NCBI RefSeq assembly: GCF_000725285.1
Contig: NZ_CP007161.1
Location: 2,456,213-2,520,212, forward strand
Reading direction: 5' to 3'
Source: Virgibacillus sp. SK37
GTDB taxonomy: Bacteria; Bacillota; Bacilli; Bacillales; Amphibacillaceae
Length of the DNA: 64,000 nt
The notes beneath the pieces were generated by a model. That model was given only the letters and a program-made list of their open reading frames with translations, was not told the origin of the DNA and did no database searches. A program made the translations under genes and the position numbers. Shown here one piece after another: positions 38,000 to 39,999 of the stretch (position 1 is its first letter; every line of letters begins with the position of its first letter).

Positions 38000-38032
38000 A
38001 AAAAATCATTCTCCCAAAAGGAGAATGATTTT
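38000..38032 (-). terminator. Terminator after the NhaC-type transporter gene
   Basis: The hairpin AAAATCATTCTCC/GGAGAATGATTTT begins just past the stop codon and is followed by a T-run on the minus strand. Confidence 0.85.
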
Positions 38033-38035
38033 CAA

Positions 38036-39595
38036 TTACTCATCAGATAATTTTGTTTTAACTAAAAACTGCAGCAATAAGCAAATACCAATAATTACTG
38101 CAAAGGTTATAATCAATGGCAGAACTACTTGGTTTAGTGTACCAATCAGCAAATAACCAACACTAGCAGCAACAGCAACAATCATTGCATATGGCAGCTG
38201 TGTTAATACATGATCTATATGATTAGCTCCTGCTCCTGTAGAGGAAAGGATTGTTGTATCTGAAATTGGAGTACAATGGTCGCCAAATACGGATCCAGCC
38301 AAAACAGCAGCTAAGGTTGGCAGTAGTAAATCAATATTTGAAATGGATGTTACCTCAGCAGCTATTGGAAGCATTATTCCAAATGTTCCCCAAGAAGTTC
38401 CTGTTGCCAGTGCCATAATCCCTGCAATAATAAAGAACAAAAATGGTAGTAAACTTGGGCTGATAGAAGCACTTTCGACTACACCTGCAAGGTATTCACC
38501 AGTTTTCAGTGTACCAATTATGGAACCGATCATCCACGCTAAAAGTAAAATATAAATTGCTGGAAGCATCGTTTTAATACCTTCTATGATTATCTTTATG
38601 GTATTAGCTTTAGGCTTACTCTGTTGTAGATGAAAAAGAAGATTTGTCAATACAGCAATTAGACCACCTGTAAACAATGAAAGGTTTACATCTGTGTTTG
38701 CGAATATTGTTAAGATATTAACAGTGCCTTCCGTGTTGTTTATTCCGGTGATCACCATCATTACTACAGTCGCTATAATTAATACGCCAATTGGTGTTAA
38801 TAGATGAAATACGCTTCCGCTTTCATGTGGTTTGAATGTATCTCCTAAATCCCCAGGAATATTATCTTGCTTAGGATCATAAAGCTGGCCAGTTTTTATG
38901 GCACGTTGTTCATGTATCTTCATTGGTCCAATATCCATTTTAAAGTATGCCACTACAAAAACCAGCAATACGGCACCGAGTGCATATAAGTTAAACGGAA
39001 TCATCTTTATAAATGCTTCTAAAGGTGCAATATCAGTTATTCCATTGGCTGCAAATAACCCACCAAGAATACCAATAATATAGGCGCCCCAGCTTGAAAT
39101 GGGAGATATAACAGTAACTGGTGCTGAAGTAGAATCAATAAAATAAGCAAGCTTGGCTCGTGAAACACGGTGACGGTCCGTTAGTGGTCTTGCAATTTGA
39201 CCTACAGCAAGACTATTAAAATAATCATCTATAAATATAATTAGACCTAATACCGCACTCATTAACTGTGCACCCTTGCGTGTTTTAACTCTCTGAATCA
39301 TCCAATCCCCGAAGGCTCTGCTCCCGCCAGATGCCTGCAGAAATGCCGTCATTATGCCTAATAATAATAGAAAACTAAGTAAGAGTATATTTCCAATATT
39401 TAATGAGCCATCTGAGACAAAGATTTCATAAAAAATTGTCCAAATTTCTTTTACCATTGCAAATAAATTAAAATCGTGAATAAACAATGCTCCAACAATA
39501 ATCCCGGCTCCAAGAGAAATTAGCACTTTTCGTGTCAGTAAAACAAGTACTAACATTAATATAGCTGGGATAATGGAAAAAATGGTCCCCTCCAT
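38036..39595 (-). CDS. NhaC-superfamily transporter, predicted lysine transporter (LysW type)
   Basis: A 519-residue polytopic membrane protein of the NhaC/ion-transporter superfamily, with about 12 helices. Conserved parts are FIDDYFNSLAVGQIARPLTD (about 123-142), SPISSWGAY (about 165-173), ATGTSWGTFGIMLPIA (about 397-412) and GSVFGDHCTPISDTTILSS (about 431-449). By sequence alone it would be called a Na+/H+ antiporter, but the lysine riboswitch in its leader predicts lysine as substrate, as proposed earlier for riboswitch-linked NhaC-type transporters (LysW). The ATG at 39595 has GGAGG upstream; the longer frame to 39634 is rejected. It is a single-gene transcript. Confidence 0.85.
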   Translation of the reverse strand: MEGTIFSIIPAILMLVLVLLTRKVLISLGAGIIVGALFIHDFNLFAMVKEIWTIFYEIFVSDGSLNIGNILLLSFLLLLGIMTAFLQASGGSRAFGDWMIQRVKTRKGAQLMSAVLGLIIFIDDYFNSLAVGQIARPLTDRHRVSRAKLAYFIDSTSAPVTVISPISSWGAYIIGILGGLFAANGITDIAPLEAFIKMIPFNLYALGAVLLVFVVAYFKMDIGPMKIHEQRAIKTGQLYDPKQDNIPGDLGDTFKPHESGSVFHLLTPIGVLIIATVVMMVITGINNTEGTVNILTIFANTDVNLSLFTGGLIAVLTNLLFHLQQSKPKANTIKIIIEGIKTMLPAIYILLLAWMIGSIIGTLKTGEYLAGVVESASISPSLLPFLFFIIAGIMALATGTSWGTFGIMLPIAAEVTSISNIDLLLPTLAAVLAGSVFGDHCTPISDTTILSSTGAGANHIDHVLTQLPYAMIVAVAASVGYLLIGTLNQVVLPLIITFAVIIGICLLLQFLVKTKLSDE

Positions 39596-39692
39596 AGATA
39601 CTACCTCCAATTTTTTGTTGTGAATATGCATCAAGATAGTGAACTAGCTATGAATGGACGCGTATTTTTGTTCTTTAATGCGAAAAATAAGC

Positions 39693-39729
39693 ACAAAAAA
39701 ACAATGATAGAAAATAACCCATCATTGTT
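39693..39729 (-). terminator. Lysine-riboswitch expression-platform terminator
   Basis: On the minus strand, ACAATGAT...ATCATTGT followed by seven T lies between the aptamer and the transporter start. Confidence 0.85.
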
Positions 39730-39754
39730 TTTACAATATACGTTATCCTCCATT

Positions 39755-39947
39755 TCGATCAGTAGTTCTCCATGCACACTCCGTCTTGCTGCATGACAGT
39801 ACATTTCTTATTCAAAAATGTACCAGCTATAATAAGGTTGACACTTATTATGCTTCGGCAAACAATCCTTCTACCAACAATCACAGTTGTCATTCTCTTG
39901 CTGGCTACTCATATTGCTTGCGCCTCTACCTCACCGATCTGATAAGG
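39755..39947 (-). promoter_or_regulatory. Lysine riboswitch (L-box)
   Basis: Read on the minus strand: GATCGGTGAGGTAGAGGCGC, CAAGCAATATGAGTAGCC, GCAAGAGAATG, GTAGAAGGATTGTTTGCCGA with GCCGAAGC, a P3-type hairpin CATAATAAGTGTCAACCTTATTATAG (interrupted), AGCTGGTACATTTTTGAATAA, TACTGTCATGCAGC and GTGCATGGAGAACTACTGATC. These are the conserved L-box elements, with P1 closing between GATC...GTAG and CTACTGATC. A terminator follows, so lysine should switch the transporter gene off. Confidence 0.92.
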
Positions 39948-39970: not shown

Positions 39971-39999
39971 ATTATAACAAGTATGTTTCATTTGTACAA
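39971..39999 (-). promoter_or_regulatory. Sigma-A type promoter for the lysine-riboswitch leader
   Basis: On the minus strand TTGTAC (39994-39999) and TATAAT (39971-39976) are 17 bases apart, directly upstream of the L-box. Confidence 0.75.

Follow-up and report, generated by a model that had tools for sequence, protein, structure and literature searches.

The NhaC-superfamily gene at the centre of this analysis very likely encodes LysW, a secondary-active lysine importer that is predicted to be controlled by a transcriptional OFF switch. It lies on the minus strand of a 64,000-nucleotide stretch of DNA from Virgibacillus sp. SK37 (NZ_CP007161.1, positions 2,456,213 to 2,520,212), referred to here as the window. 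Taking related loci into account, we also think it probable that LysW stands for a lysine-transporter family with swapped halves, which would comprise an anabolic branch under riboswitch control and a catabolic branch in lysine-6-dehydrogenase operons, and that tet(35) corresponds to the last 369 residues, from Met165 on, of the 533-residue lysW of Vibrio. In that case, tet(35) calls in susceptible Vibrio would report a housekeeping lysine importer, not resistance.

LysW was reportedly introduced by Rodionov et al. in 2003 as a predicted lysine transporter under L-box control. It also appears as a candidate lysine transporter in passages of other comparative genomic studies (PMC5584792, Mukherjee et al., 2017; PMC545781). 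Both the published LysW and the protein of the window are NhaC-superfamily proteins encoded directly downstream of a lysine riboswitch, and LysW is spread over Firmicutes and Proteobacteria. A 2024 review regards the function of NhaC proteins under lysine riboswitches as unknown and offers import of lysine or pH antiport as the options (PMC11477304). In Vibrio natriegens, RNA-seq found four genes that change with lysine, and NhaC is not named in the portions of the main text available (PMC12925634). A literature search of mainly open-licence papers, some available in part, found no experimental test of LysW transport; nor did the open-licence search find a paper equating Tet(35) with LysW or linking NhaC to lysine dehydrogenase. 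New relative to the published LysW are the sister branch in the lysine-dehydrogenase operon, the half-swap with respect to NhaC, conservation of the antiterminator and, in Vibrio, the Tet(35) identity.

The leader and the gene have the following parts, in the direction of transcription:
39971 to 39998, minus strand: candidate extended -10 promoter, TGTACA-16-TATAAT with an extended TG (10 of 12 matches)
39755 to 39936, minus strand: lysine riboswitch aptamer (L-box), complete (RF00168, 117.6 bits, E 8.8e-31)
39742 to 39753, minus strand: 5' strand of the antiterminator, AUGGAGGAUAAC, starting 2 nt past the aptamer and forming a 12-bp helix with 39718-39707
39707 to 39718, minus strand: 3' strand of the antiterminator, GUUAUUUUCUAU, overlapping the terminator loop and part of its 3' arm
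39697 to 39732, minus strand: intrinsic terminator hairpin, 15 bp and a U run (terminator scan; present in 29/30 family loci)
39604 to 39610, minus strand: Shine-Dalgarno-like TTGGAGG (read from the sequence)
38036 to 39595, minus strand: lysW, predicted lysine importer, 519 aa, NhaC superfamily (PF03553, 230.9 bits)
38002 to 38032, minus strand: 13-bp inverted repeat and T run after the lysW stop codon, probable terminator (by eye)

An earlier note on this DNA had claimed that a full L-box aptamer, a terminator and a promoter precede this gene only. The aptamer is borne out by a search with the Rfam covariance model, in which it scores far above the gathering cut-off of 30 bits and spans model positions 1-182. 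Our own covariance model, R1, gives it 129.6 bits, with the window sequence being among the 25 aptamers from which R1 was built. The promoter claim stands in part: there is a candidate at the expected position (39998-39971), but the scan found 10 promoter-like sites against 8.4 expected, so that their number is not above chance and the candidate is backed by position only. The leader serves lysW alone by position, as the note had proposed. The same-strand neighbour upstream, a YunB gene (40800-40003), ends ahead of the promoter candidate, and the next minus-strand gene downstream, for an SNF symporter (37261-35687), starts about 775 bp beyond lysW.

The terminator also held up, with its 15-pair stem and U tract. 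Terminator-like sites near the window leader are commonplace by chance (2 found, 1.6 expected in shuffles), and the comparison was extended to 30 leaders of the family (29 relatives and the window), which are kin and hence not independent observations. The hairpin is present in 29 of these 30 loci (28 relatives and the window) versus 64/600 shuffled leaders, and an antiterminator helix of at least 12 bp in 27/30 versus 17/1450 shuffles. The threshold was set at 12 bp or more as 8 bp is too loose, being reached by 628/1450 shuffles. In two of the family loci (L291 and L298) the antiterminator helix begins inside the last bases of the aptamer; that of the window has no overlap with the aptamer, and the minimum-energy fold of its leader contains aptamer and antiterminator at once. 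That lysine tips the balance between the helices in the window leader is therefore something we infer.

The RF00168 aptamer is thus followed by an expression platform with alternative helices, the 15-bp terminator and the 12-bp antiterminator, and judged from its sequence the anatomy of the leader is that of a transcriptional OFF switch. Terminator-type L-box leaders are repressed by lysine, as established for other L-boxes, and by analogy with these characterised leaders that of lysW would respond in the same way. When lysine is scarce, the antiterminator just downstream of the aptamer would form, allowing read-through and production of the importer. When lysine is plentiful, the bound aptamer would lock its P1 helix, the neighbouring terminator would form and transcription would stop. 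In a wider census, 32/68 L-box loci had a terminator-like hairpin of -8 kcal/mol or better, compared with 17/204 mononucleotide shuffles. The split is uneven, with such hairpins in 29/41 L-box leaders of Bacillota versus only 3/27 from gammaproteobacteria; gammaproteobacterial leaders without a terminator may act on translation.

The start of lysW is best taken as the ATG at 39595 behind TTGGAGG, not the TTG at 39634 of the mechanical list of open reading frames. An orthologue from a genome of the same genus (L270), 97% identical, is matched from residue 9 onwards only, and its open frame has a different N-terminus, which suggests a small indel near its start. At the other end of the gene, the terminator scan did not list the inverted repeat at 38032-38002, though it is visible by eye.

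LysW belongs to the NhaC superfamily on its PF03553 score, as previously claimed, and its gene has the L-box directly upstream, an arrangement that is conserved among orthologues. A sequence search found no solved relative (best E 0.2). The AlphaFold model has a mean pLDDT of 91.9, and it comes closest in fold to an integrative model of MleN (Z 24.5, rmsd 3.6, 408 aligned residues). NaS1, NaDC3, Pho90 and INDY follow with Z of about 18-21 over about 400 residues, and Foldseek gives a probability of 1.00 for ranks 1-24. On the predicted model, LysW therefore shares the fold common to INDY/NaS/AbgT-type structures. The INDY/NaS/NaDC-type fold is what we take to be the IT superfamily of elevator transporters. 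LysW would then be an elevator-type transporter of the IT superfamily, on an NhaC-superfamily branch distinct from the NhaC antiporters, and probably driven by Na+ or H+ symport; we infer its direction, substrate and coupling ion. Thirteen residues are invariant in 58 homologues (D123, D124, D140, R146, D154, S167, W169, D439, H440, S445, H462, Q466 and Y469), which makes them candidate residues of the sites for substrate and ions.

The relationship of LysW to the NhaC antiporters proper is distant. The window genome encodes two other proteins above the NhaC equivalog cut-off of 370 bits (TIGR00931), at 520.5 and 372.6 bits, and LysW itself reaches 45.5 bits, with residues 292-486 aligned to model positions 19-207, and so falls outside the equivalog. 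In profile alignments, LysW 312-486 aligns to NhaC 40-212 (E 2e-14), and LysW 4-231 aligns weakly to NhaC 238-471 (E 4e-4, probability 34.8). The two half matches are out of sequence, and the halves of LysW are therefore in swapped order. We rejected the reading of the partial match as a collinear fragment, since there are two half matches in swapped order, the second of them weak. LysW and NhaC thus have a Pfam superfamily and similar half-domains in common, but the halves of LysW are swapped, which would suggest that this repeat fold underwent a permutation during its evolution.

Of the two true NhaC genes of the window genome, one (L017, 2799-3707, minus strand) comes next after a gene that is presumably proline-racemase-like. 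Elsewhere in the genome, an NhaC-superfamily gene (L014, 6672-5123, minus strand) is present as two open reading frames of 130 aa and 364 aa, perhaps frameshifted; its neighbours are, we assume, an alr-like gene on one side and a dehydrogenase-like gene on the other. Other members of the superfamily include MleN, an NhaC transporter under a SAM riboswitch (PMC5399880) and one under a tyrosine T-box (PMC2494555). They have superfamily and fold in common with LysW, but differ from it in substrates and regulators.

Homologues of LysW at E 1e-40 or better occur in 63 of 249 genomes of the phylum. Among the 83 matches listed, 78 loci were fetched and two more belong to the window's own genome, while three were dropped because they contain stops or are incomplete (two in G039 and one in G161). 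In 30 of the 78 Bacillota loci, an L-box on the same strand precedes the gene by 1-284 bp; the other 48 are without it. A second set of 84 loci of named source (80 from named genomes and four from a plasmid collection) was searched with our own covariance model, which places an L-box 42-368 bp ahead of the gene in 68. The 16 named loci without one include all four actinomycete loci, the Deinococcus locus and L238, which has no upstream DNA. All bearers of the L-box are Bacillota or Pseudomonadota. A subset of 32 named loci comes from 31 genomes that were searched with Rfam, and 30 of these genomes have lysine riboswitches. Given how many homologue loci are without an L-box in both sets, some members may carry other substrates. 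Neither a T-box nor a SAM or other amino-acid riboswitch reached gathering score when the 78 Bacillota loci were scanned with Rfam. The idea of another metabolite-sensing RNA (T-box, SAM and the like) near the homologues was likewise rejected, as lysine riboswitches and tRNAs are all that Rfam gives there at gathering score.

On an 81-row tree the L-box label changes 13 times, against a mean of 24.8 when shuffled; this is a quick tree with long branches, and it shows clustering of the L-box, not a single origin. In the window's own family the L-box is present at all 29 of the closest orthologue loci (the closest, not all). Three loci (L289, L294 and L296) have it 413-698 bp before the match, versus the usual 113-279 bp in the family set. 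The presence of the L-box in these closest loci and in 68/84 of the wider set supports the proposal of the earlier note that the protein is of the LysW type, with lysine as its predicted substrate.

Gammaproteobacteria have a second type of LysW (L156, L157, L158, L219 and L222), in which DDFFH and SPISSTS replace DDYFN and SPISDTT; it keeps the L-box, and its ion or substrate binding is perhaps altered. In two Vibrio loci (L197 and L199), lysW is directly upstream of apparent hisG-hisD-hisC genes, named from reading their sequences.

The window genome has two further L-boxes: the first precedes dapA, and the second lies some 500 bp ahead of an Amidohydro_3 gene. The latter is given here after three other RNAs that lie in the window itself:
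Window 4129 to 3984, minus strand: FMN riboswitch (Rfam)
Window 54200 to 54090, minus strand: SAM riboswitch (Rfam)
Window 2786 to 2686, minus strand: Bacillaceae-1 RNA (Rfam)
L014 3953 to 3779 (G000:C1:2754452-2754278), minus strand: third L-box, very similar by eye to the sequence of the lysW L-box

The third L-box has a terminator-like hairpin by eye, and the Amidohydro_3 gene, the next gene after it, is followed by one for an SBF-family transporter. Between this L-box and the amidohydrolase gene (L014, about 3600-3390) are imperfect repeats of roughly 50-60 bp (GGTATGACGGACATTG...).

A separate line of evidence comes from a second LysW homologue in the window genome, about 50% identical to LysW. 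Such paralogues group as a single clade (support 100) that lies within the L-box bearers in a quick LG+G4 tree made without L238. An L-box was found in 0/22 paralogue loci, versus every one of the closest orthologue loci, and Rfam found nothing in the 20 paralogue loci searched. Paralogue neighbourhoods were compared at 24 loci, a subset of the listed ones (L321 and L326, being the same locus, were counted once). Downstream of the paralogue are genes for an aldehyde dehydrogenase (22/24), an aminotransferase (20/24), a saccharopine-dehydrogenase-fold protein resembling L-lysine 6-dehydrogenase (19/24) and a TPP enzyme (18/24); the stretch may stop short of the dehydrogenase gene in L322, L335 and L342, and several of the dehydrogenase matches are truncated where the stretch runs out. 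The best solved match of the operon dehydrogenase is 3ABI (E 5.9e-40), ahead of saccharopine reductase (3.4e-12). 3ABI is described as the L-lysine 6-dehydrogenase of Pyrococcus horikoshii (PMC10413350). Near the 80 named homologues, a search at E 1e-30 in flanks of up to 4 kb, compared with roughly 5 kb around the paralogues, gave no match to the aminotransferase, the aldehyde dehydrogenase or the lysine dehydrogenase; three of the 80 have a distant TPP enzyme nearby (32-33%). The paralogue branch is tied to lysine by an apparent degradation-type operon and the LysW branch by its predicted riboswitch, and the sister branch would supply lysine to the degradation operon.

The analysis also bears on a gene catalogued as conferring resistance. 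Among NCBIfam models, Tet(35) (NF000013, 369 positions) gives the window protein its highest score, 311.7 bits, below the 750 bits set for membership. In the genus of Vibrio sp. RE86, 76/80 genomes match Tet(35) at E 1e-150 or better, nine of the 80 exceed the cut-off (752-838 bits), and all 30 loci fetched, the best 30 of the 76 matches, have an L-box upstream. All nine genes above the cut-off encode 533 residues from the chosen start, and from the internal Met165 to the end there are exactly 369; in all nine genomes, the Tet(35) fragment begins at this methionine, with a lysine riboswitch upstream. Residue 165 is also where the alignment to the model begins in 9/9 gammaproteobacterial proteins scanned. 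Tet(35) is thus a collinear homologue of LysW, but its model is without the first 164 residues. As it matches only residues 165-533 of the 533-aa Vibrio LysW, the Tet(35) reference looks like a shortened lysW. The original paper is said to describe efflux by Tet(35), and a fragment, when overexpressed, could still lower tetracycline accumulation. Tet(35) is termed an energy-dependent efflux pump in a study in which tet34 and tet35 were ubiquitous in Vibrio isolates, and the 62 tested isolates from southern sea otters were tetracycline-susceptible (PMC11921324). Its authors give a weak pump or non-functional allelic variants as reasons for this susceptibility (PMC11921324).

Other functions for LysW have to be weighed against lysine import. 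The superfamily name (PF03553) fits a genuine Na+/H+ antiporter, which would serve pH control when lysine, and with it proton-consuming lysine decarboxylation, is low; this alternative is stated in the 2024 review, on C. difficile riboswitches (PMC11477304), and mentioned in PMC5584792. We consider it unlikely, as two NhaC equivalogs are already present in the genome, LysW falls far below their cut-off with its halves swapped, and the nearest LysW paralogue adjoins a lysine-dehydrogenase-like gene. The preference of the earlier note for an importer over an antiporter was weak on the riboswitch alone, but gains support from the paralogue operon, the separate NhaC equivalogs and the swapped halves. 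A lysine transporter predicts both a riboswitch on one branch and a degradation-type operon on its sister, which a pH antiporter does not. Export of lysine, or a lysine/cadaverine-type exchange, is compatible with a sequence that does not reveal the direction of transport, but we judge it improbable. A lysine-repressed leader of the terminator type fits an importer better than an exporter, which would need the opposite sense, and the two neighbours scanned encode YunB and the SNF symporter, neither of them a decarboxylase.

LysW might also carry a range of cationic amino acids (lysine, arginine and ornithine), with lysine as one substrate as well as the regulatory cue; this reading would overlap with lysine import, and we hold it tentatively. 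LysW resembles the ArcD model weakly, in part and without collinearity (21.5 bits; cut-off 650), and the aminotransferase and TPP enzyme of the paralogue operon could, we presume, belong to an arginine transaminase route. Against this, Rfam scans near the homologues gave lysine riboswitches and no other metabolite-sensing RNA, and the dehydrogenase of the paralogue operon is lysine-6-dehydrogenase-like. That LysW pumps out tetracycline in the manner of Tet(35) is highly improbable, even with Tet(35) as its best NCBIfam model and efflux by Tet(35) reportedly described: the score is far under the cut-off and the model corresponds to the C-terminal 369 of the 533 residues of Vibrio LysW. The susceptibility of tested Vibrio isolates that carry tet35 also speaks against it (PMC11921324).

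Predicted lysine import by LysW bears on how these proteins are named. Most annotated homologue matches are called 'Na+/H+ antiporter NhaC family protein', just as the earlier note had expected of automatic annotation, and with this common NhaC naming the clade may be misnamed. The paralogue in the lysine-dehydrogenase operon is an independent line that separates an importer from a pH antiporter, and the results from related loci make the contested function of LysW directly testable. They also cast doubt on tet(35) as a catalogued resistance gene, and identity of Tet(35) with LysW would explain the discordance between tetracycline genotype and phenotype in Vibrio.
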